Shown here: in pieces, positions 7,442-37,428 of the stretch
How the letters are laid out: every line of letters begins with the position of its first letter
Numbering within the stretch: the stretch's first letter is position 1
DNA from: Bacteroidales bacterium
Lineage (GTDB): Bacteria; Bacteroidota; Bacteroidia; Bacteroidales; UBA932
Length of the DNA: 64,000 bases
NCBI GenBank assembly: GCA_022653675.1
Contig: JALCST010000003.1
Span: forward strand, 124,001-188,000
Direction of reading: 5' to 3'
Made by a program: the position numbers and the translations under genes
The notes under the pieces: generated by a model
Seen by the model: the letters and a program-made list of their open reading frames with translations, nothing else
Told to the model about the DNA's origin: nothing
Databases searched by the model: none

Positions 7442-7463
7442 CTTCATGCCGGACAAAACATGT

Positions 7464-8738: not shown

Positions 8739-8758
8739 GAATAAATTTCCTGTAGGGA

Positions 8759-8766
8759 CAAATTTA
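8759..8766 (-). promoter_or_regulatory. -7 box of the condensation-like gene
   Basis: On the minus strand TAAATTTG exactly matches the TAnnTTTG consensus and sits 20 bp upstream of the ATG at 8738. No good TTTG was found 19-21 bp upstream of it. The opposite strand carries a weaker TATATTTA at 8788-8795 for the divergent gene starting at 8817. Confidence 0.4.
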
Positions 8767-8816
8767 GGCACTCGTTATGAATTTGAGTATATTTACGCGA
8801 ACAAATCCACATCATA

Positions 8817-11006: not shown

Positions 11007-11008
11007 GC

Positions 11009-16094: not shown

Positions 16095-16099
16095 AATTA

Positions 16100-18042: not shown

Positions 18043-18051
18043 TTACCTCCT

Positions 18052-19083: not shown

Positions 19084-19115
19084 CATTTCAATCTTCCTTA
19101 TGCCAATAAAGTTTA

Positions 19116-19168
19116 CGAATGTAAGCGTTTTTGCCGTTTTGACCAAATGCATTTTCGGGTTATCTTTG
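19116..19168. promoter_or_regulatory. Back-to-back divergent promoters of hddA and the HAD phosphatase gene
   Basis: Plus strand: TTTG (19138-19141), 19 bp, TATCTTTG (19161-19168), a perfect match, giving a leader of about 5 bases for the HAD gene at 19177. Minus strand: TTTG (19144-19147), 20 bp, TACATTCG (19116-19123), one mismatch, giving a leader near 27 bases for hddA. The two -33 boxes lie within 10 bp of each other, so polymerase binding on one strand should exclude the other. Confidence 0.6.
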
Positions 19169-19962: not shown

Positions 19963-20022
19963 TCAATTTTTATATAAGCAAAATTGTATCATTTTGTGGA
20001 AAAATTCGTATTTTCGCACAGA

Positions 20023-20904
20023 ATGGAACAGCACATAATAAACGAGATACCCCCCCTGTCCGAAAAGGACTGTTTTTTCGTAACCGAGAGGTTCAAGACG
20101 GAATTCACATTCCCGCTTCACAGGCACAGGGAATACGAGTTGAATTTCATCCAGCACGGAGCCGGGGTGGTCCGCGTAATAGGAGACAGTATCGAGACCA
20201 TAGGAGACTACGAGCTGGTACTGGTAAGTGGGGAGAACCTCGAGCACGTGTGGGAACAGGGTTCGTGCAAATCCCCGATGATACGTGAAATCACCATTCA
20301 ATTCTCTCCGGAGCTGTTGTCGAACAACCTTTTGGAGAAAAACCAGTTCGACAGCATAAGAAAAATGTTCACGCTTGCCCAGCACGGACTTGCTTTCTCT
20401 CTTGATACCATAATCAGGGAATACTCGCTCATCGACTCCATACCGCGTGAAACCGATCCTTTCATCCAGTTCCTGAAATTGCTGAAACTGCTCCACGAAC
20501 TTTCGGTAAGCGAAGGCGCGAGGCAGCTCGCCACAAGCAGCTTTGCAAAGGCCGAAAGGAATACCGAGAGCCGCCGCGTATTGAAAGTGAAGGAATTCAT
20601 AAACGCAAACTACAGGGACGAGATAACGCTCTCGGAAATGGCCGCGATCGCCGACATGTCCCCGGCATCCTTCAGCCGTTTCTTCAAGCTTCGCACCGGA
20701 AAGAATCTAAGCAATTACATAATCGACATAAGACTCGGACACGCATCGCGCCTTCTCGTGGATTCCACCGACACTATAGCCGAAATATGCTACGAATGCG
20801 GCTTCAACAACATTTCGAATTTCAACAGGATTTTCAAGAAGAAAAAAAGTATGACTCCGAAGGAATTCAGACAACTTTACAAAAAAAGCAAAGTAGTCAT
20901 CTGA
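20023..20904 (+). CDS. AraC-family transcriptional regulator
   Basis: A 293-residue regulator. The N-terminal cupin-like sensor has HRHREYELNFIQHGAGVVRV and DYELVLVSGENLEHVW, the AraC ligand-pocket pattern. The C-terminal AraC/XylS domain (about 195-290) has two helix-turn-helix units, ITLSEMAAIADMSPASFSRFFKLRTGKNLSNYI and IAEICYECGFNNISNFNRIFKKKKSMTPKEFR. ATG 20023 is preferred to the upstream ATG at 19984 because a -7-like TATTTTCG (20009-20016) lies between them. It sits directly before the mannan operon, which has no hybrid two-component or ECF/anti-sigma pair in view, so it is the best candidate for its regulator. The inducer is unknown. Confidence 0.9.
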   Translation: MEQHIINEIPPLSEKDCFFVTERFKTEFTFPLHRHREYELNFIQHGAGVVRVIGDSIETIGDYELVLVSGENLEHVWEQGSCKSPMIREITIQFSPELLSNNLLEKNQFDSIRKMFTLAQHGLAFSLDTIIREYSLIDSIPRETDPFIQFLKLLKLLHELSVSEGARQLATSSFAKAERNTESRRVLKVKEFINANYRDEITLSEMAAIADMSPASFSRFFKLRTGKNLSNYIIDIRLGHASRLLVDSTDTIAEICYECGFNNISNFNRIFKKKKSMTPKEFRQLYKKSKVVI

Positions 20905-20984: not shown

Positions 20985-21136
20985 AGCCAGCATGCGATTT
21001 TTTCGACATTTTTTTAACATATAATAATGAAATGCCGATACCTGTGGCCTATTCATTCCCCCGGAAACCGGGTGAAACAGTGCTATCCAGACCCAAAGGA
21101 GTCCTCAAATAAGTACATCTTTTTGATAAAATCATA

Positions 21137-21168
21137 CTTGATTGACCTGTGCAATCCAGATATTTTTG
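21137..21168 (+). promoter_or_regulatory. Proximal promoter of the mannan operon
   Basis: CTTG (21137-21140), 20 bp, TATTTTTG (21161-21168). The -7 box is exact, and the -33 box has one mismatch. It would start transcription near 21173, leaving about 20 bases before ATG 21192, and supports that start codon. Confidence 0.5.
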
Positions 21169-21191
21169 TACGAATGAAATTACGAACTGAA

Positions 21192-22523
21192 ATGAAAAAA
21201 CGGCTTAAAATCATCTTTTCCTTATCGCTTTTGGCGATTCTTTCATTTTCCTGTACTGAAAAACCCGATTATTACAAAGTCGTCGACGGGCAGTTCATTC
21301 ATGACGGATCCCCTTATTATTTCATAGGTACCAACTTCTGGTACGGCTCCATACTAGCTTCCGACGGCGAAGGCGGAGACAGGGCCCGGCTCTCGGCAGA
21401 ACTCGACACATTGAAATCCATCGGTCTGACTAACCTCCGCATAATGGTCGGAAGCGACGGAGAGAACGGGGTTCCCAGCAAAGTCGAGCCCACCCTTCAA
21501 AAAAGTCCGGGAAACTATAATGACACACTTCTAAGAGGGTTGGACTATATGATGTGCGAACTCGGCAAGCGCGGCATGAGTGCTGTCCTGTTCCTGAACA
21601 ACGCATGGGAATGGACCGGAGGCTACGGACAGTACCTCGAATGGGCCGGCTACGGGAAGGCCCCCATACCGAACATTGACGGCTGGGACAAATACCATGA
21701 TTACGTCAGTCAGTTCATTCGTTCGGACAGCGCGAAGGCGCTTTTCTCGAATTACGTGAAATACATCGTGGGAAGGAAGAACGGGATCACGGGCAAGCCC
21801 TACAGCGAAGACCCGGCGATTTTCTCCTGGCAGATCGGCAACGAGCCACGCGTATTCAACACCGACAGCGCAAGCAAGGCTGAGTTCGTAGACTGGCTCC
21901 GGTCTACCGCGAAGCTGATCAAGGGCATTGACGGGAATCACATGGTCTCCATCGGCAGCGAAGGCTACCACGGGTGCGAAGACGACTGGAACCTTTACGA
22001 ATCCTGCTGCTCGATCCCCGAAATAGATTATATAAACATGCACATCTGGCCATACAATTGGGGATGGATAGACAGGACAGACCCGGCGGCAGGCGTTACA
22101 GAAGACGATGCAAAATCAATCGACAGCACCAATGCATACATGGAAAAACATCTGGAAATAGCCGCCAGGGTCAAGAAGCCCCTGGTTTGCGAGGAATTCG
22201 GATATCCGCGCGACGGATTCTCCTTCTCTCCCGGATCCGCGACGGCCGCAAGGGACGCCTATTATTCCAACATGTTCGGGCATATCGTGAAATCCGGCAA
22301 GGAGGGTGGTTATTTCGCCGGATGCAACTTCTGGGGATGGGGCGGCCTCGCCAAGGCAAGGCACACTTTCTGGGAGAAAGGGGACGACTACACAGGCGAT
22401 CCGGCCCAGGAACAGCAGGGACTGAATTCCGTCTTCGCTACGGATACTTCCACTTTGGACGTCATCAGGAGAGCCTGTTCCAGGCTTCAGCAAACGATAA
22501 ACGAAACAAACAGTAAACTATGA
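21192..22523 (+). CDS. GH5 subfamily 7 endo-beta-1,4-mannanase, lipoprotein
   Basis: A 443-residue enzyme that cleaves internal beta-1,4-mannosidic bonds. The lipoprotein signal ends SFSC (Cys21), which fixes the start at 21192 instead of ATG 21027, since the longer form would bury the signal. The GH5 barrel has acid/base Glu218 in WQIGNEPR and nucleophile Glu335 in LVCEEFGYPRDG, both in the form typical of subfamily 7. NMHIWPYNWGW and GCNFWGWGG line the cleft. First gene of the mannan locus; the next gene overlaps by 4 bp (ATGA). Surface location would make it the initiating enzyme; periplasmic-facing anchoring cannot be excluded. Confidence 0.92.
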   Translation: MKKRLKIIFSLSLLAILSFSCTEKPDYYKVVDGQFIHDGSPYYFIGTNFWYGSILASDGEGGDRARLSAELDTLKSIGLTNLRIMVGSDGENGVPSKVEPTLQKSPGNYNDTLLRGLDYMMCELGKRGMSAVLFLNNAWEWTGGYGQYLEWAGYGKAPIPNIDGWDKYHDYVSQFIRSDSAKALFSNYVKYIVGRKNGITGKPYSEDPAIFSWQIGNEPRVFNTDSASKAEFVDWLRSTAKLIKGIDGNHMVSIGSEGYHGCEDDWNLYESCCSIPEIDYINMHIWPYNWGWIDRTDPAAGVTEDDAKSIDSTNAYMEKHLEIAARVKKPLVCEEFGYPRDGFSFSPGSATAARDAYYSNMFGHIVKSGKEGGYFAGCNFWGWGGLAKARHTFWEKGDDYTGDPAQEQQGLNSVFATDTSTLDVIRRACSRLQQTINETNSKL

Positions 22524-24952
22524 TAGAATCCAAGAATACACGTACTCTTCTTATTGCCGTCCTGGCCACCGCCCTGGCGATCCTTCCGGCATACGCACAG
22601 AAATTCGAGGGACTGGGCCGCACTCCCCAGATGGGATGGAACAGCTGGAACAAATTCGGCTGCAACATAGACGAAGAACTCATCCGCAAGACAGCCGACG
22701 AAATGGTCTCCAGCGGGCTTCGCGACGCCGGTTACATCTACCTGAACCTGGACGATTGCTGGCATGGAGACCGTGATTCGAACGGCTTCATCCAATGCGA
22801 TCCCGAACGTTTCCCGAGCGGGATGAAGGCCCTTTGCGACTATGTGCATTCAAAGGGACTCAAGATCGGAATCTATTCCGACGCCGGGACAAGGACCTGC
22901 GCGGGAAGAGCTGGCAGCCTCGGGCACGAATACCAGGATGCCCTGCAATATGCACGCTGGGGGTTCGATTATCTGAAATACGATTGGTGCAATACCAACG
23001 GCTTAGATGCCAAGAAAGCCTATACACTGATGCGCGATGCCCTATACGCCGCCGGACGGCCCATTTTCTTCTCGATATGCGAATGGGGATCCAACCATCC
23101 CTGGACATGGGCTAAAGACATAGGCAACTCGTGGCGCACGACAGGCGACATCCGCGCCTCGTTCGATGAAGACGAGGGTTATTCACACTCGGTTCTCGGG
23201 ATCCTCGACAAGCAGGACGGCCTGCGCGAGTTCGCCGGCCCCGGGCACTGGAACGACCCGGACATGCTCGAAGTAGGCAATGGAATGAGTGTCAACGAAG
23301 ACCGTGCCCACTTCACAATGTGGTGCATGCTTGCCGCTCCTTTGATCCTTGGAAACGACCTGACGGACATGACCGAAGGCACAAAAGCCATAATCCTTAA
23401 CAAAAAGATGATAGCCGTCGACCAGGACACCCTCGGGATACAGGGGCTGAGGATCGGCAAGGGAAACGGCATGGAATACTGGCTCAAGCCTCTCAGCGGA
23501 GGGGATTGGGCATTCGTCGTCCTCAACAGGAACAAGGAAGAGGGCACCTGTACCATCGACTGGGACAAAATGGAATTTCATGACCCGATGGCCGGTCGTT
23601 CCACGGATTTCAGCCAGATAATATACGATGCCGAAAACCTCTGGGATGCGACCGCAAGCACCAACACGGAAAGCGATGTCACCGTCACCATACCGGGACA
23701 CGATGTGGTGGCATACAGGCTGCATCCTACGGCCCGCGGAGGACTGGTATTCGCAGCAGGTGCCGGAAACGACTCCCTGTACACGAAAGGCGAAAATGCC
23801 ACGGTAAGCTTTACGGCATACAATGCCGCCCGAAAGAGTGTCAGGGGCAATTACATGGTAAAGGTATTCACGGACAAACACGAGGAATACAAGACCATTA
23901 CAGGAAAGGTCAATGTCGGGCCCGGTGCTACCGAAAGCTTCAGCGTATCCTTCGGACTCGAGCCAGGATTCTACGACATACGATTTTACAAGGGTACGGC
24001 GAAGCATAACGCCCTTGTGAGGGAGTTCAACATAGGCTGTTCTCCCGAGGATGTCGTCTCGGCTACGGATGCACAGCCGGACTTCGACTCCTTCTGGAAA
24101 AGTACGATATCCGAACTGGAGAACACCGCTCCGAATTACAGCATGATAAGGGACGATTGCAAATCGGGCGAGGGAAGGGACCTTTACGTAGTCAGGATGA
24201 CCTCCTACGGAGGTGCGGAAATCGGCGGATTCCTCGCCGTCCCTAAGGACGCCAAAGCCGGAAGCTGTCCGGTCCGCATATCCTACATGGGTTACAACAG
24301 CGACCCATGGTATCCGGATACCTCTTCCGACACAAATTGGATAGATTTCGTGCTCTCGGGCAGGGGACAGGGCGTTTTCAAGTCTACGAACACCTACGGC
24401 GACTGGGTCGCCTACGGAATCGACGACAAGGACACATATTATTACAGGGGCGGATACATGGATGTCATAAGGGCGATCGACTTCGTTTGCACATTGCCTG
24501 AAGCGAACAAGAAGGAAATCTTCGCCGAAGGCGACAGCCAGGGGGGCGCCTTCACCCTCATAGCCGCCTCCCTCGACGGCAGGCTCAGGGCCGTATGCCC
24601 CGGCGTACCGTTCATGAGCGACTTCAGGGATTACTTCAAGATCGTAAAGTGGCCGGCCACTCCGGTCCTGGAAGCCGCCAGCAAGCTGGACATGCCGGAA
24701 GAAAAACTTTACTCCATCCTGTCATACTTTGACGTGAAGAATTTCACCTCGAGGATCAAATGCCCCGTACTGATGGCATTCGGCCTCCAGGACGGAGTAT
24801 GCCCTCCACATACCAATTTCGCCGCATTCAACAACATCGGTTCCACGGACAAGGAATGGGTCTGCTACCCGCATGCAGGCCATGACGTATGGCGCGATCC
24901 CACATGGAACGAAAGGAAGATGAAGTTTTATTCCAGATTCATCGGACAATAA
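22520..24952 (+). CDS. Bifunctional GH27 alpha-galactosidase - CE7 acetyl esterase
   Basis: An 810-residue exported protein (signal peptide to about AYAQ, residue 27). Residues about 32-400 form GH27: TPQMGWNSWNKFGC, nucleophile Asp155 in LKYDWCN, and the acid/base segment WNDPDMLEVG (244-253), with the usual C-terminal beta domain. A linker beta module spans about 405-505. Residues about 515-810 are a CE7/acetyl-xylan-esterase alpha/beta hydrolase with nucleophile Ser673 in GDSQGG, Asp758 in FGLQDGV and His788 in PHAGHD. It would strip alpha-1,6-galactose and O-acetyl groups from mannan oligosaccharides, clearing the backbone for the mannanases. The ATGA overlap with the GH5 gene suggests translational coupling. 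All catalytic residues appear intact in both halves. Confidence 0.9.
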   Translation: MIESKNTRTLLIAVLATALAILPAYAQKFEGLGRTPQMGWNSWNKFGCNIDEELIRKTADEMVSSGLRDAGYIYLNLDDCWHGDRDSNGFIQCDPERFPSGMKALCDYVHSKGLKIGIYSDAGTRTCAGRAGSLGHEYQDALQYARWGFDYLKYDWCNTNGLDAKKAYTLMRDALYAAGRPIFFSICEWGSNHPWTWAKDIGNSWRTTGDIRASFDEDEGYSHSVLGILDKQDGLREFAGPGHWNDPDMLEVGNGMSVNEDRAHFTMWCMLAAPLILGNDLTDMTEGTKAIILNKKMIAVDQDTLGIQGLRIGKGNGMEYWLKPLSGGDWAFVVLNRNKEEGTCTIDWDKMEFHDPMAGRSTDFSQIIYDAENLWDATASTNTESDVTVTIPGHDVVAYRLHPTARGGLVFAAGAGNDSLYTKGENATVSFTAYNAARKSVRGNYMVKVFTDKHEEYKTITGKVNVGPGATESFSVSFGLEPGFYDIRFYKGTAKHNALVREFNIGCSPEDVVSATDAQPDFDSFWKSTISELENTAPNYSMIRDDCKSGEGRDLYVVRMTSYGGAEIGGFLAVPKDAKAGSCPVRISYMGYNSDPWYPDTSSDTNWIDFVLSGRGQGVFKSTNTYGDWVAYGIDDKDTYYYRGGYMDVIRAIDFVCTLPEANKKEIFAEGDSQGGAFTLIAASLDGRLRAVCPGVPFMSDFRDYFKIVKWPATPVLEAASKLDMPEEKLYSILSYFDVKNFTSRIKCPVLMAFGLQDGVCPPHTNFAAFNNIGSTDKEWVCYPHAGHDVWRDPTWNERKMKFYSRFIGQ

Positions 24953-24989: not shown

Positions 24990-27900
24990 ATGAAAAGAAA
25001 AGGACTATTGTTACTGATGTCTTTGTTTCTCTTCGGCATTTCTATCTCGGCCCAGACTGTCACCGGCATCGTTACCGACGCCGCCAACAATGAACCTCTG
25101 ACGGGAGTATTCGTAGGAATAAAGGGAAACACGACTGTCGGAACTACCACAGACACCGACGGAAGTTACGTCCTGAACGGCGTAAAATCCAATTCCGTCT
25201 TGGTATTCAGTCTTTTGGGCTACACCACAGTTGAACTGCCAGGACAAGGCAAAGCCAGGATCGACGTGGCGATGAAATCCGAACTGACCGAACTCGACCA
25301 GGTAGTAATCGTCGGATACGGTTCAATGAAAAAATCCGACCTGACCGGGTCCATCGCTTCCGTTTCAAGTGATAAACTGCAACAAAGCATCGCGACCAAT
25401 GTCGACCAGATGCTTCAGGGCAAGGTGTCGGGAGTGCAAATAACACAGAATTCAGGCGCCCCCGGAGCAGCTACCTCCATCCGAATACGCGGTGCGAATT
25501 CCATCAACAACTCAAACGAACCGCTCTACATCATAGACGGGATCCCGATGTCGGGAAGCGGGGATAAAATCATAGGGTTCGACTGGGCCGGCGGGACCAA
25601 CGGCCAGAACACCATCAACCCTCTGTCGAGCATCGCCCCGAGCGACATAATTTCCATCGACATACTGAAGGATGCATCCGCAACCGCAATATACGGAGCG
25701 AATGGCGCCAACGGCGTCATTCTAGTCACCACCCGCAGAGGCAAGAAAGGCAAGGCGGTCATAACATACGACGGATACGTAACCCAACAAAAGATAGGCA
25801 AGTATCTTGACATGATGAACTTGCAGGAATATGCCCAATACGAGAACGAAATGGGTGCATTCACATCACAGGACGTTGACGCATCCTACGGAGATCCTTC
25901 CATACTCGGCGAAGGCACGGATTGGCAGAAGGAAATCTTCCGCACGGCGTACATGCAAAGCCATCAGGTATCGGTCAGCGGCGGATCCGACGCCGGCACA
26001 TTCGCCGCAAGCGGCGGCTGGACGAAACAGGACGGTGTCGTGATAGGATCCAACTTCAAACGCTTCAACGCACGTCTCAACGCCGATGCAAACATACGCA
26101 CGTGGCTACATGGAGGAGCCTCGCTCGCCTTCACATCCACAAACGAGACAATTACCAACAATGACGGCGCTGACGGCGTAATAATGCAGGCGCTGACAAT
26201 GCAGCCATCGATTCCGGTCTACGATTTCGACGGTAACTACGCAGGCCCCAACAACGTCAACGGAGCGTCCCAGTACAATCCAGTATGGCTGGCTCTTATG
26301 AAAACCAACGATTTTACCAGCCACAAGGTAATGGGCAACTTCTACCTGACCGCCGACATCACCCCACATCTGAACTTCCGTTCGGAATACGGCTACAACC
26401 TGTCCGACAACAACTCCATGTGTTTTGTCCCGACTTACTCATTCGGTGTCATAACCAACAACACCAACAAGATATACCGTCGGGACGATCACTCGAATTA
26501 TTGGATTTGGAAGAATTATGCAACCTGGGACAGAAGCTTCGGCAAGCACAAGTTCGTAGTTATGGCCGGCACGGAACTGTCCAGAAACTCATGGAGCGGC
26601 AATACCATAAACAAGCAGGGCCTTTCCACCGATGAAATAAAAGTTGTCACCACCGACGGAGATTTCGTTTCGAACAGCGGATGGAAAGATGCCTCAACCA
26701 CGGCTTCATTCTTCGGACGCATTAACTACAACTTCGATGAAAGATACCTGTTGACCGCTACCTTAAGAGCAGACGGCTCATCCAAATTCGGTGCAAACAA
26801 CAAATTCGGCATATTCCCTTCCGCATCTTTCGCATGGAGAATCAATCAGGAAGATTTCATGGAGGACATTACCGACATCTCCAACCTGAAGTTGCGTATC
26901 GGCTACGGACAGGTCGGAAACTCCAACATCGACCCATACCTGTACGGAGCGACTATGAATTCGATAACCACACCGATGGGAACGGCCTATTTCATGAGCA
27001 ACATCGCCAATCCAAACCTCAAGTGGGAGGCGACCGAAAGCTGGAACCTCGGTGTCGACCTGGGACTGTTCAACAACCGCATTTCATTAACCGTCGACGC
27101 TTATCAGAAACAGACGAAGGATCTGCTAATGCAGATTACCGTACCTTCCTATCTGGGAGGCACCACCACATATGACGATATCGCCACACCTATGGTCAAT
27201 ATCGGCAAGACCCGCAACCGCGGCGTCGACATAACCCTCAACACCGTCAACATCGACAACAAGAACTTCCAGTGGTCCAGCAATCTCGTCTTTTCTCTCA
27301 ACCGCAACATGGTAATAGCCATGAACGACGATTCACAGGTCATATACGGAGCCGTGGACTGGTACTCCGAATACCAGAACGCGACAGAGATCAAGGTTGG
27401 CCAGCCTATCGGAGTATTTTACGGATACGTCGTAGACAGGCTTTTCACTTCCGAAGAAGACATACTGAACAGCGCCGTGCAGGTGGAAGACCCGTCAAAT
27501 CCGGGGAAGAACCTATATAACAAGACAACTGGCGTTTATGTGGGAGATATAAAGTTCAAGGATCTCAACAACGATGGCGTAATAGACGATGATGACCAGA
27601 CCGAAATAGGCGATCCGAACCCTGATTTCACATTCGGATTGACCAATACCTTCGATTTTTACAATTTCGAAGTCGTATTGGGCCTTTCGGGAGTTTACGG
27701 CGACGACATCCTGAATTTCACACGATATTGCACTGAAAACATGACTTCAATCTGGGATAACCAGTCGGCCGCAGTGGTCAACCGCGCAAAGGTCGGAACG
27801 GATGCGAACGGAAACGCATATCTCATCAATACCGACACCTCCATCCCCCGCACTTCCACGAACGATTTCAACCGCAACAACAGAATGTCCACCAGATTCA

Positions 27901-28154
27901 TAGAGGACGGTTCCTATCTGCGTATCCAGAACCTGTCCATCGGATATAAAATCCCGGTGAAAATCTGCGAAAGGATCGGATTGCGTAACCTGAAGGTTTA
28001 CCTCAACGGCCAGAACCTATATACTTTTACGAAATATTCCGGATATGATCCCGAAATAGGGGCCTACAACCAGAATGCTTCGCTGCAGAATATAGACCGG
28101 GGCCGTTATCCTACCCCTCGCAGTATAACGTTGGGCGTAAACATAGGTTTCTAA
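24990..28154 (+). CDS. SusC-type TonB-dependent glycan transporter
   Basis: A 1054-residue outer-membrane importer. Signal peptide (to SISAQ, about 22), CarboxypepD_reg-like domain (TVTGIVTDAANNEPLTGVFVGIKG, 23-100), TonB-box-like LDQVVIVGYG near 105, plug (about 120-235; LQGKVSGVQITQNSGAPGAATSIRIRGANSI is split here only in description) and a 22-strand barrel ending RSITLGVNIGF. It forms the SusCD pair with the next gene, whose product acts as lid. It lies 37 bp after the GH27-CE7 gene. Within this locus the cargo should be manno-oligosaccharides, linear or galactosylated. Length and layout are typical. Confidence 0.95.
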   Translation: MKRKGLLLLMSLFLFGISISAQTVTGIVTDAANNEPLTGVFVGIKGNTTVGTTTDTDGSYVLNGVKSNSVLVFSLLGYTTVELPGQGKARIDVAMKSELTELDQVVIVGYGSMKKSDLTGSIASVSSDKLQQSIATNVDQMLQGKVSGVQITQNSGAPGAATSIRIRGANSINNSNEPLYIIDGIPMSGSGDKIIGFDWAGGTNGQNTINPLSSIAPSDIISIDILKDASATAIYGANGANGVILVTTRRGKKGKAVITYDGYVTQQKIGKYLDMMNLQEYAQYENEMGAFTSQDVDASYGDPSILGEGTDWQKEIFRTAYMQSHQVSVSGGSDAGTFAASGGWTKQDGVVIGSNFKRFNARLNADANIRTWLHGGASLAFTSTNETITNNDGADGVIMQALTMQPSIPVYDFDGNYAGPNNVNGASQYNPVWLALMKTNDFTSHKVMGNFYLTADITPHLNFRSEYGYNLSDNNSMCFVPTYSFGVITNNTNKIYRRDDHSNYWIWKNYATWDRSFGKHKFVVMAGTELSRNSWSGNTINKQGLSTDEIKVVTTDGDFVSNSGWKDASTTASFFGRINYNFDERYLLTATLRADGSSKFGANNKFGIFPSASFAWRINQEDFMEDITDISNLKLRIGYGQVGNSNIDPYLYGATMNSITTPMGTAYFMSNIANPNLKWEATESWNLGVDLGLFNNRISLTVDAYQKQTKDLLMQITVPSYLGGTTTYDDIATPMVNIGKTRNRGVDITLNTVNIDNKNFQWSSNLVFSLNRNMVIAMNDDSQVIYGAVDWYSEYQNATEIKVGQPIGVFYGYVVDRLFTSEEDILNSAVQVEDPSNPGKNLYNKTTGVYVGDIKFKDLNNDGVIDDDDQTEIGDPNPDFTFGLTNTFDFYNFEVVLGLSGVYGDDILNFTRYCTENMTSIWDNQSAAVVNRAKVGTDANGNAYLINTDTSIPRTSTNDFNRNNRMSTRFIEDGSYLRIQNLSIGYKIPVKICERIGLRNLKVYLNGQNLYTFTKYSGYDPEIGAYNQNASLQNIDRGRYPTPRSITLGVNIGF

Positions 28155-28173: not shown

Positions 28174-29898
28174 ATGAAAAATATATTTAAAATATTGGCC
28201 GTTACAGTCCTCCTGATCTCGGCGGCATCCTGCCAGCAATTCCTGACGGTGACTCCCGTGGACTCTCTCGTGTCAGACAACTACTATACAAGCGCCGAAG
28301 CCCTGAGAGCCAATACGGCATCGCTTTACGGCCGGGCATGGTTCAATTATTTCGGCAGGTTCATGTACCAGACCGGAGACATGCTCTCGGGTGATCTGTA
28401 TTATACCTACGAACAGGAAGGCCACTTCTACTATAATGCCGTAAGTGCCGGCAATACGTACAACAACACTGGCTGGGTAGGGCTCTATCGCGTTATATCG
28501 TTCGCCAATTCCATCATCAACGACATGCCTGCGTCGGCCAAAGCCAACGGGGTCGCCGAAGCCGACATAAACCAGGCCCTGGCCGAGGCACGTTTCGTCC
28601 GCGGGACATGCTACTACCTCATAGCCGAATATTGGGGCGAAGCTCCCATCATCTCCAATTCCACAGAAATGATAACCTCCAGTGACCCTAAGGATATTTT
28701 AGCTTACAGGAATACCCAGAGCAACCTTTACAGGTTCGCCTGCGAAGATCTCGAATATGCCGCAAGCATACTGCCCGCTTCCGACGATGCGGGACGCCCG
28801 ACGGTATGGAGCGCATACGGCATGCTGTGCAAGGTTTACACCACACGCGCTGCATACGAGAAGAACGACGACTATTACGCGACAGCAAAGAGCTACGCCC
28901 TCAAGGTCATAGATGAAAGCGGACTCTCGATGTGGCCCGACTACAGCACGATGTTCGACGTGGGAGCCAACAATTGCGAGGAGTCTCTGTTTTCCATCCA
29001 ATGCATGGTCGGAAATTACGGCGACGGCAACACCCGCAACGTGGAATGGTCACGCAGTTCGAGAATAGCCGACCAGACTTGGGGCGCGGGCAAAGGCCCA
29101 ACGCTCTCGCTGCAGAACCTCTATTCTTCCAACGATCTGAGAAGAAAATGGATATTCATGACCAACGGGGATTATTATTCCAACCTCGACAAGGACGAGG
29201 GCGGCTACACCTACAATTACGTTTACCGCGATCCCAACGATCTCTCCACGGTAGTCGAAGCAGCCGACCCGATTCTCGCCCATATCAAGAAGTACATAAT
29301 CGGCAAGGCCGACGACTGCGACGGCGAAGTGGGACAAAACCAGGATGCGGGCAACAATATCTACATCCTGCGACTGACAGACGTATACATGCTTTACATA
29401 GAAGACTGCATAGCTTCAGGTTCATCCACGAGCGATGCCAAGGCCATCGAACTGATGGGCAAGGTGCTTTCGCGTGCGGGGCTTGAAAACGACTATACCA
29501 GTATAAGCTTCGAGGACCTTATCACCGAACGCCGCAAGGAATTCGCTTTCGAAGGCATCAACTGGTTAGATGTCAAGCGTTATTACTACAGAGATTCCGT
29601 AGCGGCACTTCAATATCTCAACGATATGAAACGCGACCAGATATATGCCTTGACCTACACCACGGAATACAACAACATGACCGATGCGGACAAATCCGTT
29701 TACGAAAACAAAAAGAGCAATTACCATCTTACCTGGCAGACCCTTTCTGACTCCGACGATCCCGATTCGAGGGTGGACAACATAGTATTCACCAGCGCTT
29801 CGATGTATTTGCCTATCCCTACCGCCGTAACGACTTCCGACCCTCTGCTGAGCCAGGACGCGGTGGACTATTACGCAAAAACAGATGACAATAAATAA
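28174..29898 (+). CDS. SusD-like outer-membrane glycan-binding lipoprotein
   Basis: A 574-residue lipoprotein (lipobox AASC, Cys20) with the TPR-based SusD fold. FLTVTPVDSLVSDNYYTSAEAL after the signal and ARFVRGTCYYLIAEYWGEAPII are the N-terminal SusD-like signatures; ERRKEFAFEGINWLDVKRY near the C-terminus is the RagB/SusD motif. It caps the SusC channel and delivers mannan oligosaccharides. Gap to SusC is 19 bp. Aromatic-rich segments (YYTYEQEGHFYY) could form the sugar platform, but no ligand residues are proven. Confidence 0.95.
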   Translation: MKNIFKILAVTVLLISAASCQQFLTVTPVDSLVSDNYYTSAEALRANTASLYGRAWFNYFGRFMYQTGDMLSGDLYYTYEQEGHFYYNAVSAGNTYNNTGWVGLYRVISFANSIINDMPASAKANGVAEADINQALAEARFVRGTCYYLIAEYWGEAPIISNSTEMITSSDPKDILAYRNTQSNLYRFACEDLEYAASILPASDDAGRPTVWSAYGMLCKVYTTRAAYEKNDDYYATAKSYALKVIDESGLSMWPDYSTMFDVGANNCEESLFSIQCMVGNYGDGNTRNVEWSRSSRIADQTWGAGKGPTLSLQNLYSSNDLRRKWIFMTNGDYYSNLDKDEGGYTYNYVYRDPNDLSTVVEAADPILAHIKKYIIGKADDCDGEVGQNQDAGNNIYILRLTDVYMLYIEDCIASGSSTSDAKAIELMGKVLSRAGLENDYTSISFEDLITERRKEFAFEGINWLDVKRYYYRDSVAALQYLNDMKRDQIYALTYTTEYNNMTDADKSVYENKKSNYHLTWQTLSDSDDPDSRVDNIVFTSASMYLPIPTAVTTSDPLLSQDAVDYYAKTDDNK

Positions 29899-29917
29899 TC
29901 TAACACATCATACGGAT

Positions 29918-31102
29918 ATGAAATACACAAAATATTTTATAATAGCAGCCGTTTCCCTGTTGGCTTTCGCCTCGTGCAGCATATTCGAGACCGACCCTAC
30001 CGAAAACACGGCCGTCCCGGTGATCAAGTACGTAAGACCCACTGTGGCGGCGGCAAGCGATTCACTCCTCAGCGAAGCTTCCATGGGAGCGACGGTAGCC
30101 ATAATAGGCGAGAATCTTTCGGGAGTCGACGAAGTCTGGTTCAATGACCGGGAAGCCAAACTTAATCCCGTTTACGTCACCAACACCTCCATAGTCTGCC
30201 AGGTTCCCGGTTCCATGCCGAGCGAAATCACGAACACCATAACGGCAAAGACAAAGGCGGGCAAGAGCTGCACATACGGCTTTTCAGTCATAATCCCTTC
30301 ACCGAAAGTCACAAGCATCGACTGCGAGTGGGCTGCCGACGGTTCGACCGTAACCATAACGGGCAACTATTTCTTCGGCGACGCTTCCGAGGTCAAAGTC
30401 CTTTTCCCGGGTAACGTCTATGCGGAAGTTACCGACGTAAGCACAACTTCGATAACCTGCGTCGTTCCGGAAGGAGCACTCGCCGGAACGATCTTCGTGA
30501 CATCGCTTTACGGAAAGGGCCGCAGCGAATTCACATTCCGCGATTCCGGAGTATGGTTCCTAGATTTCGAGAATACATCAACTTGGAATACATGGAGTTA
30601 CAGCGACTTTGAAACCGAGGGAGGAATCAGCGGCTCATACATGAACTTCGTGGGAACAGGAGGCAGTTGGGCATGGCCTAACAGCAACCTCTGTTTCTAC
30701 TATCACAACCCTACCCAGACATGTCTGGTCGACGGAGGAGATGTCGCAGACTACGCGCTCGCCTTCGAATACGAATGCGATTATTGGTCCGACACTCCTT
30801 TCTGCCTGATCTTCACCGCAACCGACAATTCCTTCGATGTCGATAGCGACAATGCACAATGGCATTGGGAACCTTACGTCAACGACGGGGTCTACAGCAC
30901 TTTCACCACGAACGGCGAATGGAAAACCATGATCGTCCCTCTCACCGATTTCAATACCAGCAAGGACGAGAGCGAAACCCGCAAGATAAAATCGGTCAAC
31001 GAACTGGTAAACATCAACGGAATCTTCTTCGGCGCTGCAGAAAGCGATACAGACAAAGCCATAAGCCTGAAGATAGACGATTTACGCATCATCAAGCTTT
31101 AA
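29918..31102 (+). CDS. Surface glycan-binding lipoprotein with IPT/TIG domains (SusE-position)
   Basis: A 394-residue lipoprotein; lipobox FASC sets the start at ATG 29918 (the frame opens earlier at 29885, inside susD). Two IPT/TIG immunoglobulin-like modules follow (about 25-115 with GATVAIIGENLSGVDEVWFND, and about 120-215 with GSTVTITGNYFFGDASEVKVLF). The C-terminal domain (about 218-394) is rich in Trp and Tyr (FYYHNPTQTC, WHWEPYVND), as expected of a mannan-binding module. It resembles the end of the next protein. Its role would be holding polysaccharide at the surface for GH5/GH26 enzymes. No known CBM family was recognised. Confidence 0.8.
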   Translation: MKYTKYFIIAAVSLLAFASCSIFETDPTENTAVPVIKYVRPTVAAASDSLLSEASMGATVAIIGENLSGVDEVWFNDREAKLNPVYVTNTSIVCQVPGSMPSEITNTITAKTKAGKSCTYGFSVIIPSPKVTSIDCEWAADGSTVTITGNYFFGDASEVKVLFPGNVYAEVTDVSTTSITCVVPEGALAGTIFVTSLYGKGRSEFTFRDSGVWFLDFENTSTWNTWSYSDFETEGGISGSYMNFVGTGGSWAWPNSNLCFYYHNPTQTCLVDGGDVADYALAFEYECDYWSDTPFCLIFTATDNSFDVDSDNAQWHWEPYVNDGVYSTFTTNGEWKTMIVPLTDFNTSKDESETRKIKSVNELVNINGIFFGAAESDTDKAISLKIDDLRIIKL

Positions 31103-31119
31103 TAATGGAGGACAATGAA

Positions 31120-33597
31120 ATGAGAAAGAATTTCAAGCACATCATTCTTCTTGCAGGAGCAATCCTATGTATCGGCATGACGGGAGGTTGTCAGAAGGAA
31201 AAAAATACCGTTCCCATGCTGGAAGCATTCGGACCTTGCCCAATACTGCGCGGGACTTCGATAACCTTTATTGGAGAGAACCTTGACAAGGTTACCAGCG
31301 TCACGTTCCCGGACGGGATCGAAGTCAGCGACCTCACGAAAGAGGGTACTACCAAACTTTCCGCAACCGTTCCCCAGGAAGCCGCAGTTGGAAAAATGAC
31401 CCTAAACTACGAAGGAGGAAGCATTACATCAGTTTCGAACATAAGCTATTCGGAACCCTATTCCATCTCTTCGATCTCACCTACCGACAATACAATACGC
31501 GAGGGAGACGTAGTGACCATCGACGGAGACTACCTGAACAACATAGTAGCCGTAGTATTCATGAGCAGCGCGAAGGTGGATTCCGCGGATTTCATATCGC
31601 AGTCCCGTTCCGAGATCACCCTCGCAGTGCCTAAGGAGGCGCAAAACGGCAAGATAAAAGTAGTTGACGCATCGGAGAACGAACTTTACTCCGATCAGGA
31701 ACTGACGATAGCCCAACCTGCAATTACCATGGAAGACCAGACCGTCAAGGCCGGGACCCTTCTTACCATTCCCGGGACAAACGTCGACCTGGTGGCTTCG
31801 GTCACGTTCGTGGGAGGAAGTGTAGTAAATGCGGAAGATTTCGCAGAAGTAACCACCTCAGCTATCAAACTGATCATTCCCGATGATGCACAGGACGGCA
31901 TAATAACCGCCACTTCGTATGCCGGGATCGAGATTCCTTCCACCGGATCCCTTACCATGCTTCTCCCTACCGTAAGCGGCGTCGAATCCTCTGCCTCTTT
32001 CAAGGCGGGAACCGATGTTAGGATAAGCGGTACCGATCTGGACCTCGTCACAGGAGTGACATTCAGCAACGGCAAGGAGGCCGATTTCAATTATGCCGAC
32101 GGCGTAATAACCGCAAAAATTCCTTCCGATGCCGTAGACGGAGCCATAACCCTTACTTGTGCATCTACCAAAACCATAGATACGGACGCGATAAACCTGC
32201 TGGAACCGACGATAATATCTTTCGATCCGGTATCGGTTGTCGCAGGGAATGATTTCACCCTCTACGGAACCGACCTGGACCTTGTTTCGACGGTAAAACT
32301 CGACGGCGAAAAGCTGGACTTCGAATTGATCGACAATTCCACCCTTACCGTCCACACCACAGCCACTTCGGCTTCCGGAACCATTGAAATAACGGCAGCC
32401 AACGGCGACGAGGTCGAATCCGCGGACCAGATGACGGTCACATACAACTCGTACGTCATAATAAGCTCGATGCCGGAATCGGCCGGAGTCGATGACGAGA
32501 TCACCGTAACAGGCTCCAACTTCAACATGGTGGACGAAATCTACTTCGGGGATACTCGCGTGACTTCCTATGTTTCGCGTACCGACACCGAAATGACATT
32601 CCGTATTCCGGACGTGGAAAGCGGAACCTACAATATGAGGTTCGTGCTCTTCTCCGGCGATTCGGAGACCTGTGCAAAGGCTATAAAAATAACGGGCAAG
32701 GTCGTCATAACCGAACTCTGGTCCGGCACTCTCGACCTGGGCACCAGCTGGGGTGTCTCGGCTTCAATCCCTGCGGAAAACTTCGCCGACATCCATCCGG
32801 GCGACAATGTTACAATGGAATTCTCGGAGAACAGCGACGCGACCTACTGGCAAGTCAAATTCATGGACGGAAGCTGGACTCCTCTGACCTCCCCTACGGA
32901 AAACAGGAACGATTGGGATTGCATCGAAATGACTGCAGGTGCCACGAGCTATACATTCACGATCAACTACGCAGACCTCGTCGACATAAAGGCCAACGGC
33001 ATGGTTCTCAGTGGATACGGTTGTACACTCACACGCATGTACTCAAGTTGCACCACATGGAAACGCGAATCCGTCAGCAGCGATGCCATAATGATCCAGG
33101 ACTACGAACCTCACGGGAGCCACGATGCATCGTGGGATACCGGCTGGAGCGGCGGTACGGAAATGATTACCGACGAAAACGGAACATACGAACGCCTTAC
33201 CAGCGATCTCGGAGGAGGTTGCTGGATTATGAACTGCAACCATCAGGCAAACGGCGCCCTTGCGCCTACCCTCAACGACTTCAACGGTTATGTAATAAAG
33301 CTCGACGTGCTGATCCCCAACGACATCGCTTACCCTACAGGACTCCAGTTCCAGTTCGTATACGGCGACGGGTGGTATTGGATCGGGGATGCGCTTTTCC
33401 CGAATACCGAAGGGGGAGTTACGACACACGGAGGATGGATCACCATCACGATCGACCCTGCCGACTTCGGCTGGACATGTACCGGAGACGGTACGAGCGG
33501 AACCAACGGACTGTTCATAGACGGTTCTTCGACATCCGGGGTAGTGCTTCCTGCGGGCACTTGCGTTGACAACATGCGTTTCGAGCCGAAAGATTGA
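31120..33597 (+). CDS. Large surface glycan-binding lipoprotein with six tandem IPT/TIG-like repeats
   Basis: An 825-residue lipoprotein (lipobox TGGC, near residue 22). ATG 31120 has GGAGG 8 bases upstream; ATG 31105 in the same frame would add five residues. Six Ig-like repeats of about 80 residues are visible to about residue 505, each with a variant of G-t-xxx-I-x-G-xx-L-xx-V-xx-V-xF. Two further modules follow: a beta-sandwich starting ELWSGTLDLGTSWG (about 510-625) and a Trp-rich C-terminal module (about 635-825) similar to the previous gene's end. The repeats probably act as a long spacer that lifts the binding modules off the membrane. Ligand assignment to beta-mannan comes from context. 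Confidence 0.8.
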   Translation: MRKNFKHIILLAGAILCIGMTGGCQKEKNTVPMLEAFGPCPILRGTSITFIGENLDKVTSVTFPDGIEVSDLTKEGTTKLSATVPQEAAVGKMTLNYEGGSITSVSNISYSEPYSISSISPTDNTIREGDVVTIDGDYLNNIVAVVFMSSAKVDSADFISQSRSEITLAVPKEAQNGKIKVVDASENELYSDQELTIAQPAITMEDQTVKAGTLLTIPGTNVDLVASVTFVGGSVVNAEDFAEVTTSAIKLIIPDDAQDGIITATSYAGIEIPSTGSLTMLLPTVSGVESSASFKAGTDVRISGTDLDLVTGVTFSNGKEADFNYADGVITAKIPSDAVDGAITLTCASTKTIDTDAINLLEPTIISFDPVSVVAGNDFTLYGTDLDLVSTVKLDGEKLDFELIDNSTLTVHTTATSASGTIEITAANGDEVESADQMTVTYNSYVIISSMPESAGVDDEITVTGSNFNMVDEIYFGDTRVTSYVSRTDTEMTFRIPDVESGTYNMRFVLFSGDSETCAKAIKITGKVVITELWSGTLDLGTSWGVSASIPAENFADIHPGDNVTMEFSENSDATYWQVKFMDGSWTPLTSPTENRNDWDCIEMTAGATSYTFTINYADLVDIKANGMVLSGYGCTLTRMYSSCTTWKRESVSSDAIMIQDYEPHGSHDASWDTGWSGGTEMITDENGTYERLTSDLGGGCWIMNCNHQANGALAPTLNDFNGYVIKLDVLIPNDIAYPTGLQFQFVYGDGWYWIGDALFPNTEGGVTTHGGWITITIDPADFGWTCTGDGTSGTNGLFIDGSSTSGVVLPAGTCVDNMRFEPKD

Positions 33598-33621: not shown

Positions 33622-35097
33622 ATGAAAACGAGATTCCCGCTGATTGCCGCAACCCTGATCGCAATGGCCGTCCTGACCGGATGCCCGAATTCCGAAGGGC
33701 CCGAAACCGAACCGGTAACGCCTGAAATCACAAGCGTATCGATAGATGAAGGGGCCGAAGTGGAAATTACGGTGTCCAAAATCACCATCCTCTGGTCGGT
33801 GCCGGTTTCGATCAAGGATTCGACGGGAATCACGCTGAACGGAAACAAGGTCGCAGCCGTAGTTCAGAATCTGAACATGACCGTGACCTTAGGGAATCTC
33901 GGCTATTCGTCTTCCTACACTTTGAAACTCGCATCGGGAGCCGTCGTCAACAAGAATGACGGCGCTCCCGCGGCGGAGTTTTCACTCGACTTTTCGACCG
34001 GAGAGAAAGAACCGGAGAATCCCGAACTGCCCGACCAACTGAATTTCGACGGTATAAGCGATGCGCCGGTAAATTCCAACGCCACTGCGGAAACCAGAAA
34101 CCTATACTCCTATCTGAAGTCGGTTTTCGGCAGCAAGACCATTTCCGGCACGATGGCCAACGTAGCTTACGACGACGGCATGGCGGAATGGGTCCATGAC
34201 AAGACGGGGAAATGGAGCGCCCTGACCTGCTACGATTTCATCTTCTATACCCACCGTTCCGACATATACTCCTCCAGCTATAATTCCTGGGTAGATTACG
34301 ACGCCCTCGTGAATAATGCAAAGGAGTGGTGGAACAGCGGCGGGATAGTGGCTCTTATGTGGCACTGGCACGATCCCTCGAGAAGCGTCGACAACTTTTA
34401 TTGCAGCGGCGGCAGCGATGCGACCTCCTTCGACCTTACCGCAGCTCTCGCCGACACATCTTCGACGGATTACCACAACATAACAGCCGACATCGATACG
34501 GTTTCCAGATATATCGGCGACCTTCAGAAAGCCGGCGTACCGGTAATCTTCCGCCCCCTCCACGAAGCCGAAGGTTCCTACCGCTGGGGCGCATGGTTCT
34601 GGTGGGGCAACGGCCAGGGAGATGCGAGCGGAGAGGACGACGTACGGGCGGCAAGCTGCAGGAAACTCTACCGCCTCATGTATGACCGCATGGTCAACCA
34701 CAACGGCCTTAACAACATCATATGGGTCTGGACGGTTTCGATCGACGATTATGACTACCTTTGGTATGACGATGCGAAGAAATGGTATCCTGGGGACGAC
34801 GTCGTCGACATAGTCGGAATAGACATATACGACGACTCGGGTGTCGGACACGGTTCCCATCTCGATTTTTTCAAGAAAACCGCATTCGTCGGCGACTGCG
34901 ACAAAATGGTTACCCTGGCCGAAACCGCCTTCATACCGTCTGCCGAAGATATGCAAGGGAACGGCGACGTCTGGCTCTGGTATATGCCATGGTACGGGGA
35001 CTACACTAAATCGGAAGAATACAACGCCGACTACTGGGGCACATCGTTCTCGAGCGACGACATAATAACGCGGGACGAACTGCCATCATTAAAATAA
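33622..35097 (+). CDS. GH26 endo-beta-mannanase with N-terminal Ig-like domain, lipoprotein
   Basis: A 491-residue lipoprotein (lipobox LTGC, Cys21). Residues about 30-125 form a Big_5/SbsA-like Ig module (ITSVSIDEGAEVEIT ... LGYSSSYTLKLASGAV), then a Pro/Glu linker, then the GH26 barrel (about 150-490). Acid/base Glu315 lies in FRPLHEAEG, and nucleophile Glu434 in LAETAFIPS. WHWHDPSR near 248-254 is the conserved substrate wall. The Ig-like spacer and lipid anchor suit a surface endo-enzyme working beside the two binding proteins. Gap to previous gene is 24 bp. Confidence 0.92.
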   Translation: MKTRFPLIAATLIAMAVLTGCPNSEGPETEPVTPEITSVSIDEGAEVEITVSKITILWSVPVSIKDSTGITLNGNKVAAVVQNLNMTVTLGNLGYSSSYTLKLASGAVVNKNDGAPAAEFSLDFSTGEKEPENPELPDQLNFDGISDAPVNSNATAETRNLYSYLKSVFGSKTISGTMANVAYDDGMAEWVHDKTGKWSALTCYDFIFYTHRSDIYSSSYNSWVDYDALVNNAKEWWNSGGIVALMWHWHDPSRSVDNFYCSGGSDATSFDLTAALADTSSTDYHNITADIDTVSRYIGDLQKAGVPVIFRPLHEAEGSYRWGAWFWWGNGQGDASGEDDVRAASCRKLYRLMYDRMVNHNGLNNIIWVWTVSIDDYDYLWYDDAKKWYPGDDVVDIVGIDIYDDSGVGHGSHLDFFKKTAFVGDCDKMVTLAETAFIPSAEDMQGNGDVWLWYMPWYGDYTKSEEYNADYWGTSFSSDDIITRDELPSLK

Positions 35098-35132
35098 AAC
35101 CTAAATTGAACACATCACATATTTTCTGCGAA

Positions 35133-36227
35133 ATGAAAAAAAGCATATTGATCCCCCTGCTCGCCATAGTGCCTTTTGCCGCACTTGTCTCATGTACGGG
35201 AGAAAATAAGGTCTCCGGACGCCACTCCCAGGAGGCAAAACGTCTTCTGGAATTGCTCGACACGCTGGGCGATACGGGCCGGTACATGTACGGCCACCAG
35301 GATGACCTGTTTTACGGCAAAAACTGGAGCTTCAAGGACAGCAGCGATACAAAAGCCGTCTGCGGCGACTATCCGGCGCTTCTTGGAGCCGAAATAGGCG
35401 GAATAGAACTCGGAAAGCCGATATCGATCGACAGCGTCCCGTTCGACCTCATACGCAAGAAAGCAATAGAACAATATGGGAGAGGAGGAGTCGTCACTAT
35501 AAGCTGGCACATGGACAATCCGGTCACAGGAGGCAATGCATGGGACACAAGCGACTCTTCGACAGTTCATAAAATACTGAACGACTCCGCCTGCGAAGCG
35601 GCATTGGACGCTAATCTCGACATAGCGGCTAAATTCCTCTCATCGATAAGGACCAAGGAAGGAACGCCCGTACCGATACTTTTCCGTCCATGGCACGAGA
35701 TGAACTACGACTGGTTCTGGTGGGGCGAGAAGTTTTGCTCCGATTCGGAATACGTGGCTCTTTACCGCAAGACCGTCGACCGTTTCCGTTCAAAGGGGTT
35801 GGACAATATACTGTTCGTCTATTCCCCGAGCCAGGGATTCGAACCGGAAGATTACGAAAGCCGTTATCCGGGCGACGATTACGTCGACGTCCTTGCATTC
35901 GACGCCTACATGTACGGAACGAAGGAGGAATTTATCTCCATGGTCAGAAAGGAATTGGGCATCATAAGGGATATGGCCGGAAAACACGGCAAGCCGTTCG
36001 CAATTTCCGAGACCGGATACGAATCCATACCGGATCCAAATTGGTGGACCGGAACCCTCGCCCCAGCAATCAAGGGTACCGGAGCAAGCTATGTGCTGAC
36101 ATGGAGGAATGCCTGGAACAAGCCGGAACATTATTTCTCCACCTTCGCCGGAGAGAAGTCGGCAAGCGATTTCATCGATTTCTACAATTTGCCCGAGACG
36201 GTTTTCGCAGGCGACCTTGAAAAATAA
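35133..36227 (+). CDS. GH26 beta-mannanase, probable mannobiose-releasing type, lipoprotein
   Basis: A 364-residue lipoprotein (lipobox LVSC, Cys21; start ATG 35133, the frame opening nine codons earlier). The compact GH26 barrel begins directly after the signal: YMYGHQDDLFYG near 51-62, ISWHMDNPVTGG at 123-134, acid/base Glu189 in FRPWHEMNYDWFWWG, nucleophile Glu293 in ISETGYE. Sequence style and length match Bacteroides mannobiohydrolases such as ManA and BoMan26A, which release mannobiose. Mannobiose is exactly the substrate of the epimerase encoded downstream. It likely faces the periplasm; exo action is inferred from resemblance, not shown. Confidence 0.88.
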   Translation: MKKSILIPLLAIVPFAALVSCTGENKVSGRHSQEAKRLLELLDTLGDTGRYMYGHQDDLFYGKNWSFKDSSDTKAVCGDYPALLGAEIGGIELGKPISIDSVPFDLIRKKAIEQYGRGGVVTISWHMDNPVTGGNAWDTSDSSTVHKILNDSACEAALDANLDIAAKFLSSIRTKEGTPVPILFRPWHEMNYDWFWWGEKFCSDSEYVALYRKTVDRFRSKGLDNILFVYSPSQGFEPEDYESRYPGDDYVDVLAFDAYMYGTKEEFISMVRKELGIIRDMAGKHGKPFAISETGYESIPDPNWWTGTLAPAIKGTGASYVLTWRNAWNKPEHYFSTFAGEKSASDFIDFYNLPETVFAGDLEK

Positions 36228-36240
36228 AACATACCTCCTC

Positions 36241-37428
36241 ATGAATTTCGAAGAAAGACTAAAAGAACTAAAAGCATCATACGACGGACTAATAAACAGG
36301 AAGAACGTTCCTGTATTGCCGGACAACGGCATAGTTACCCGTTACGAACATCCCATAATCACAGCCGCACATATCCCGCTGGAATGGCGTTACGACTTTT
36401 CGCCTGAACGCAATCCCTATCTTCAGGAAAGGATCGGGGTGAACGCGGCTTTCAATGCCGGAGCAATATACCTGAACGGCAAATATGTCATAGCCGTAAG
36501 GATCGAGGGGACCGACCGCAAGTCATATTTCGCGATAGCCGAAAGTCCGAACGGCATCGACGGCTTCAGATTCCGCAGCCGTCCGATAACTATGCCCGAA
36601 TACGGGGAACCTGCTACAAACATCTACGACATGCGAATCACCGCCCACGAGGATGGTTGGATCTACGGAATATTCTGCGTCGAAAGGAAAGACCCCAAGG
36701 CTCACGAAGACGATCTGTCTTCGGCCGTTGCATGTGCTGGAATCGCGCGTACCAAGGATCTGGACAATTGGGAACGACTCCCCGATTTGGTCAGCAGGAC
36801 CCAGCAAAGGAACGTGGTTCTCCATCCGGAATTTTTCGACGGCAAATACGCCCTTTATACACGTCCTCAAGACGGATTCATCGAAACCGGAAGCGGAGGC
36901 GGAATATGCTGGACGCTCGTAGACGACATCACCCATGCCAAGGCAAAAAAGGAAACGGTCATAGACCCGCGCCTGTATCACACCATAAAGGAGGCGAAGA
37001 ACGGCGAAGGTCCGGCGCCTATAAGGACATCGAGAGGATGGCTTCATCTCGCACACGGGGTAAGGAACTGTGCTGCAGGATTGAGATATGTGCTATATTT
37101 GTATATGACGGCTTTGGACAAGCCGTGGGAAGTGATAGCCGAACCGGCCGGATACTTCCTGGCACCAAGAGGTGAGGAACGCGTCGGGGATGTTTCGAAC
37201 GTTCTCTTCTGCAACGGCTGGATATGCGATCCCGAAAAGCCCGGGACGGCCGAAGCCGACAGGAATATCCGCATCTACTACGGGTCCTGCGACACCAGGA
37301 TGCATATCGCAACCTCCACAGTCGGACGGTTGCTCGATTATTGCTTCAATGCTCCGTCCGACGGCCTGCACACGGGATCTTCGGTCGAGAACATAAACCG
37401 GCTCATAAGTGCCAACCAAGGGCTTTAG
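36241..37428 (+). CDS. mgp: GH130 4-O-beta-D-mannosyl-D-glucose phosphorylase
   Basis: A 395-residue cytoplasmic phosphorylase converting mannosyl-beta-1,4-glucose plus phosphate to alpha-mannose 1-phosphate and glucose. The GH130 catalytic Asp is Asp130 in ATNIYDMRITAH, in the position known for the Bacteroides fragilis enzyme. The phosphate-binding residues lie in ARTKDLDNW, NVVLHPEFFDGKYALYTRPQDGF and RIYYGSCDTRMHIAT. No signal peptide. Start ATG 36241 is 13 bp after the GH26 stop; the open frame extends upstream but overlaps it. With the epimerase and symporter it forms the known mannobiose catabolic route. A GH130_2 mannooligosaccharide phosphorylase is less likely given the neighbouring epimerase. 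Confidence 0.92.
   Translation: MNFEERLKELKASYDGLINRKNVPVLPDNGIVTRYEHPIITAAHIPLEWRYDFSPERNPYLQERIGVNAAFNAGAIYLNGKYVIAVRIEGTDRKSYFAIAESPNGIDGFRFRSRPITMPEYGEPATNIYDMRITAHEDGWIYGIFCVERKDPKAHEDDLSSAVACAGIARTKDLDNWERLPDLVSRTQQRNVVLHPEFFDGKYALYTRPQDGFIETGSGGGICWTLVDDITHAKAKKETVIDPRLYHTIKEAKNGEGPAPIRTSRGWLHLAHGVRNCAAGLRYVLYLYMTALDKPWEVIAEPAGYFLAPRGEERVGDVSNVLFCNGWICDPEKPGTAEADRNIRIYYGSCDTRMHIATSTVGRLLDYCFNAPSDGLHTGSSVENINRLISANQGL

Follow-up and report, generated by a model that had tools for sequence, protein, structure and literature searches.

Gene content of the locus

The window, that is, the whole stretch of 64,000 nucleotides analysed here, contains a co-directional run of genes extending from an AraC-type regulator to a mannobiose/cellobiose 2-epimerase (Table 1). 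The second enzyme gene of this run encodes a protein that carries both a GH27 and a CE7 domain. With its SusC/SusD pair and its GH26, GH130, epimerase and sugar transporter genes, the locus is, judging from its predicted products, a complete mannan PUL. The solved structure nearest to the GH5_7-like lipoprotein encoded immediately upstream of the fusion is that of CmMan5A, an exo-acting mannosidase, and the stop codon of this gene overlaps the ATG of the fusion gene by 4 bases. No second CE7 was found in the genome from which the window comes, which is 85.8% complete.

Two other regions of the window carry sugar-related genes. The gene at 8817-11006 (+) encodes a lipoprotein-like product of 729 residues whose C-terminal domain (residues 392-724) is an aldose 1-epimerase; the N-terminal region of this product weakly matches a GH2 TIM barrel and has no sequence match among solved structures. 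On the opposite strand, consecutive genes at 14946-19152 (-) encode a glycosyltransferase, a nucleotidyltransferase fused to a HAD phosphatase (16100-17449) and, at 18052-19152, a GHMP kinase, a cluster that looks like one devoted to heptose or sugar-nucleotide synthesis.

Table 1. Genes of the mannan PUL and features of the GH27-CE7 fusion (window positions)
Feature	Position	Strand	Basis
AraC-type regulator, head of the PUL	19984..20904	+	Pfam HTH_18, HTH_AraC
GH5_7-like lipoprotein	21027..22523	+	closest solved structure CmMan5A (1uuq, E 8.8e-101)
GH27-CE7 fusion ORF, 810 aa	22520..24952	+	one open frame, 810 codons
N-terminal secretion signal, SPI-like (MIESKNTRTLLIAVLATALAILPAYA)	22520..22597	+	read by eye from sequence
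GH27 (Melibiase_2) TIM-barrel domain, residues 35-303	22622..23428	+	Pfam, E 1.7e-74
Asp155 (KYDWC), presumed GH27 nucleophile	22982..22984	+	aligned to 1uas; invariant
Asp210 (RTTGDI), presumed GH27 acid/base	23147..23149	+	aligned to same motif of rice 1uas; conserved
GH27 C-terminal beta-sandwich (Melibiase_C), residues 316-401	23465..23722	+	Pfam, above gathering cut-off
Hinge between GH27 and CE7 parts, residues 404-420	23729..23779	+	low model confidence; pLDDT <50 at 415-419
Ig-like 7-stranded beta-sandwich, residues ~409-507	23744..24040	+	model m39c833219edb, pLDDT 94.6
CE7 (AXE1) alpha/beta-hydrolase domain, residues 517-804	24068..24931	+	Pfam, E 3.2e-54
Ser673 (GDSQGG), predicted CE7 nucleophile	24536..24538	+	sequence; invariant
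Asp758, predicted CE7 triad	24791..24793	+	sequence; invariant
His788, predicted CE7 triad	24881..24883	+	sequence; invariant
SusC-like TonB-dependent transporter	24990..28154	+	sequence; matches SusC genes of syntenic loci
SusD-like lipoprotein	28174..29898	+	Pfam
Surface glycan-binding protein (SGBP), IPT/TIG and SGBP_B domains	29885..31102	+	Pfam
Second, larger SGBP (listed ORF start lies upstream of the true start)	30859..33597	+	Pfam
GH26, lipoprotein-like, both catalytic Glu motifs	33622..35097	+	Pfam and sequence
Second GH26, lipoprotein-like, both catalytic Glu motifs	35106..36227	+	Pfam and sequence
GH130 mannoside phosphorylase (listed ORF start lies upstream of the true start)	36109..37428	+	profile match
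MFS sugar transporter	37460..38902	+	profile match
Mannobiose/cellobiose 2-epimerase	38899..40095	+	profile match

Domains and catalytic residues of the fusion protein

The presence of GH27 and CE7 domains in a single ORF, recognized in the initial annotation, is confirmed by Pfam matches far above the curated gathering cut-offs (251.2 bits for Melibiase_2, cut-off 23; 184.3 bits for AXE1, cut-off 21). The N-terminal signal, which ends in AYA-QKF, has the look of an ordinary secretion signal, and this SPI-like reading, made by eye, suggests a soluble periplasmic protein.

The best PDB matches of the GH27 half are alpha-galactosidases (6f4c, E 1e-108; 1uas, E 1e-106). Asp155 and Asp210 align with the catalytic Asp pair of both structures, and Asp155 is invariant in the 26 GH27-bearing rows of the alignment. 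From what is generally known of the family, we take Asp155 to be the nucleophile and Asp210 the acid/base. Both catalytic centres had been proposed to be complete, and their residues are indeed intact, with Asp155, Ser673, Asp758 and His788 at the positions assigned to them. The WNDPDML motif, which had been put forward as the catalytic partner of Asp155, is conserved but presumably does not hold the second catalytic residue, a role that would belong to Asp210 in the RTTGDI motif. In GH27, the Glu of the CEW motif of the galactose pocket distinguishes alpha-galactosidases from N-acetylgalactosaminidases. The fusion carries a CEWG motif, with Glu188-Trp189 as in 1uas and a Glu in 26 of 26 GH27 rows, which agrees with a predicted alpha-galactosidase rather than an N-acetylgalactosaminidase.

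The closest solved structures to the CE7 half are those of Bacillus acetyl-xylan esterase/cephalosporin C deacetylase (E 9e-42), and the modelled CE7 fold superposes on 1odt (Z 39.7, rmsd 2.1, 301 residues aligned). The triad Ser673-Asp758-His788 is invariant in all 37 CE7-bearing rows of the alignment. Pfam names no domain in the stretch between Melibiase_C and AXE1; in the model of residues 404-810 (pLDDT 94.6, pTM 0.93), a seven-stranded beta-sandwich lies there, ahead of the esterase. This Ig-like domain, which the CE7 structures matched to the model cover barely or not at all, also precedes CE7 in unfused relatives and is therefore the CE7 gene's own N-terminal domain rather than a new linker; what is flexible is the hinge around residues 404-420. 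Members of the CE7 family form homohexamers whose active sites face inward. As the orientation of the domains is poorly determined in the full-length model (pTM 0.62), no geometry of the active sites is claimed here.

CE7 relatives and their gene neighbourhoods

With an alignment of the Ig-like and CE7 domains as the query, 378 relatives were obtained from 84,980 species genomes, and the best 80 of them were read with flanks of up to 10 kb. Relatives of GH5_7, GH26 or GH130 are present in 73 of these 80 loci and SusC in 66. The recurring gene order is AraC - GH5_7 - (GH27) - CE7 - SusC - SusD - SGBP - SGBP - GH26, and it comes in four arrangements: GH5_7 and CE7 apart, GH27 and CE7 apart but consecutive, GH5_7-CE7 fused, and GH27-CE7 fused. 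Separate, consecutive GH27 and CE7 genes occur in 12/80 loci, nearly all with GH5_7 ahead, and the spacing between the unfused genes ranges from -3 to 48 nt in all loci read. GH5_7 and CE7 are fused in 32 of the best 80 loci (L035-L114), none of which carries GH27, the two being mutually exclusive within this set. As seen from these arrangements, the usual fusion partner of CE7 is the gene directly upstream.

Loci L113 and L143 add GH2 to the fusion partners of CE7. The L113 protein (6197-11128, +; 1644 aa) comprises F5/8C, a GH2 mannosidase-like part and a C-terminal CE7; in L143 (1-3285, -; cut by the contig edge), the domain order is reversed, CE7 preceding GH2. Other composite or extended proteins were observed in further loci. 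The 867-aa CE7 protein of L139 (4474-7077, -), adjoined by MFS and GH130 genes, has about 400 C-terminal residues without any Pfam match. In a genome of the same family as the window (G383), an alpha-N-acetylglucosaminidase (NAGLU) is fused to GH27 in a protein of 1100 aa (L135, 1652-4954, -), and an 861-aa protein of L138 (3916-6501, -) combines a 3-keto-disaccharide hydrolase domain, GH27 and cupins.

Distribution and origin of the GH27-CE7 fusion

Only three genomes yielded a GH27-CE7 fusion, that of the window and two others (G002 and G269), all belonging to one family from which 399 genomes were drawn. The fusions of G002 and G269 share 53-54% identity with that of the window and have the same two-domain frame, devoid of stops. 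They are adjoined by PUL genes, GH130 in one case and the order AraC-GH5-fusion-SusC-SusD in the other, and the G269 contig matches JAQVBQ010000019.1, from a Bacteroidales MAG (L042), in content. Further draws at the level of the order (393 genomes) and of the phylum (395 genomes) gave no additional GH27-CE7 fusion; the sets drawn overlap, and the phylum search used a strict cut-off that very diverged or split matches could escape. None of the plasmid records covers most of the query, so they contain no fusion, and no GH27-CE7 protein is named in the open-access literature searched. A count of three genomes also runs against the possibility, raised in the initial annotation, that the fusion is already described as common. 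GH27-CE7 is a rare, new architecture of known families, and the recurrent pattern of CE7 fusion is a more general finding than this particular pair.

In the tree of concatenated GH27 and CE7 domains, the G269/L042 fusion is placed among unfused pairs of the Bacteroides type (support 100/99). The concatenated domains reject one origin shared by all three fusions (p-AU 0.002); neither domain taken singly does so (p-AU 0.23 for GH27 and 0.14 for CE7), long branches being in play, and quick trees of all CE7 and of all GH27 domains place the window's row poorly. The tree analysis points to at least two GH27-CE7 joining events. Furthermore, unfused CE7 proteins start with a signal peptide that is missing at the fusion junctions, and the simple loss of a stop codon is therefore an insufficient explanation. 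The fusion would have arisen from an operon with GH5_7, GH27 and CE7 next to one another, by the joining of CE7 to the upstream gene and the loss of the CE7 signal peptide.

Substrate and proposed function

Until recently, CE7 enzymes were known mainly from their action on xylan and cephalosporin C. A CE7-GH5-GH26-GH130 locus had earlier been predicted to target acetylated mannan (PMC5877837). In 2026, BcCE7, from a mannan locus of Bacteroides cellulosilyticus, was reported to deacetylate spruce AcGGM; this enzyme is broad, acting also on xylan and cellulose acetate, its deacetylation of mannan is partial, much of the axial 2-O acetyl being left to a separate CE25, and galactosylated chains are a poorer substrate (PMC13276840). 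The CE7 of a Segatella copri PUL deacetylates glucomannan (PMC12704710). Hence, the earlier statement that mannan acetyl is only a predicted CE7 substrate is out of date for the mannan-PUL group (PMC13276840, PMC12704710). Mannan acetyl is the likely substrate of the CE7 half studied here, because 73 of the 80 CE7 loci are mannan-type and deacetylation of mannans was demonstrated in 2025-2026 for two Bacteroidota mannan-PUL CE7 enzymes. The sequence, the surrounding PUL, the synteny of the 80 loci and the biochemistry of mannan-PUL CE7 enzymes (PMC13276840, PMC12704710) all speak for the proposed target, acetylated galactomannan or galactoglucomannan.

There is thus good reason to see in the gene product a two-module enzyme that strips side chains for a Bacteroidales mannan PUL and that is soluble and secreted, probably into the periplasm. 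We infer its activities, compartment, substrate and order of action as follows. Oligosaccharides released from acetylated galacto(gluco)mannan by surface enzymes would be imported by SusCD. The GH27 half would then take off alpha-1,6-galactose by a retaining two-Asp mechanism (D155 as nucleophile, D210 as acid/base) and the CE7 half O-acetyl groups by a Ser-Asp-His mechanism (S673-D758-H788), the bared chain passing to the exo-acting GH5_7, GH26, the epimerase and GH130. As galactose hinders BcCE7, GH27 acting first and CE7 second would be a sensible order.

Coupled machine or accident of gene order?

That the single frame results from an assembly or sequencing error joining two genes is extremely improbable: although many relatives encode the halves in two genes side by side, a stop-free GH27-CE7 frame at 53-54% identity in two independent genomes leads us to reject an error, and a simple lost stop would have kept the CE7 signal peptide that is missing at the junction. 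A generalist role of the CE7 half, with another acetylated glycan, for example xylan oligosaccharides, as the main substrate and only an incidental link to mannan, is also quite improbable. The structures that it matches bear the names of the classical CE7 activities, acetyl-xylan esterase and cephalosporin C deacetylase, and BcCE7 accepts xylan and cellulose acetate (PMC13276840); however, the mannan-PUL setting of 73/80 loci and the mannan-type fusion partners (GH27, GH5_7 and GH2 mannosidase-like) argue against this reading.

A more serious rival, to which we give a little less than an even chance, opposes the idea of a coupled machine, along the lines of the efficient debranching machine suggested in the initial annotation, and not the assignment of two activities: the fusion would be a near-neutral accident of operon order, the halves working independently as separate proteins elsewhere. 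Indeed, the partner of CE7 depends on gene order, being GH5_7 in 32/80 loci, all of which lack GH27, and GH27 where this gene sits between GH5 and CE7; when unfused, the genes lie very close together, and GH2-CE7 proteins exist too. Moreover, BeCE15A-Rex8A and other multicatalytic esterase fusions display no intramolecular synergy (PMC8417218). Against neutrality, the occurrence of at least two GH27-CE7 joinings, together with a widespread and maintained GH5-CE7 fusion, hints at a benefit, and BoCE6-CE1 does gain synergy from fusion (PMC7110780). Selection of the fusion for the ordering of steps, galactose removal by GH27 opening acetyls to CE7 on the same oligosaccharide, seems unlikely, albeit conceivable; if the CE7 hexamer were kept, the particle would consist of six alpha-galactosidases around one esterase ring.

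Whichever its origin, the side-chain remover proposed here is a natural candidate for the joint removal of galactose and acetate from acetylated mannans. More broadly, CE7 has repeatedly been joined to a neighbouring mannan enzyme (GH5_7, GH27 or GH2), and the existence of natural fused and unfused versions of one enzyme set makes a direct test of the fusing of catalytic domains possible.

Comparison with known systems

BcCE7 (EEF89986.1) is, like the CE7 half of the fusion, a CE7 of a mannan locus with an unannotated fold ahead of the esterase domain, and the spacing of its triad as described (S281-D363-H392) resembles that of S673-D758-H788 (PMC13276840). However, it is a stand-alone enzyme, and its organism has an alpha-galactosidase of family GH36 and a further esterase, CE25, that assists BcCE7 (PMC13276840). 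The GH5_7-CE7 fusions (for example that of L045, JAMPAT010000018.1) share with the GH27-CE7 protein the mannan PUL, the C-terminal CE7 with its Ig-like domain and the position before SusC, but their partner is a GH5_7 lipoprotein and their loci are devoid of GH27. The plant-type GH27 enzymes (rice 1uas; 6f4c) share both the catalytic Asp pair and the CEWG motif with the fusion, but they are single-enzyme proteins without esterase. Lastly, BoCE6-CE1 and BeCE15A-Rex8A also associate an esterase with a second catalytic domain in Bacteroidota PULs, but they belong to other enzyme families and are directed at xylan (PMC7110780, PMC8417218).
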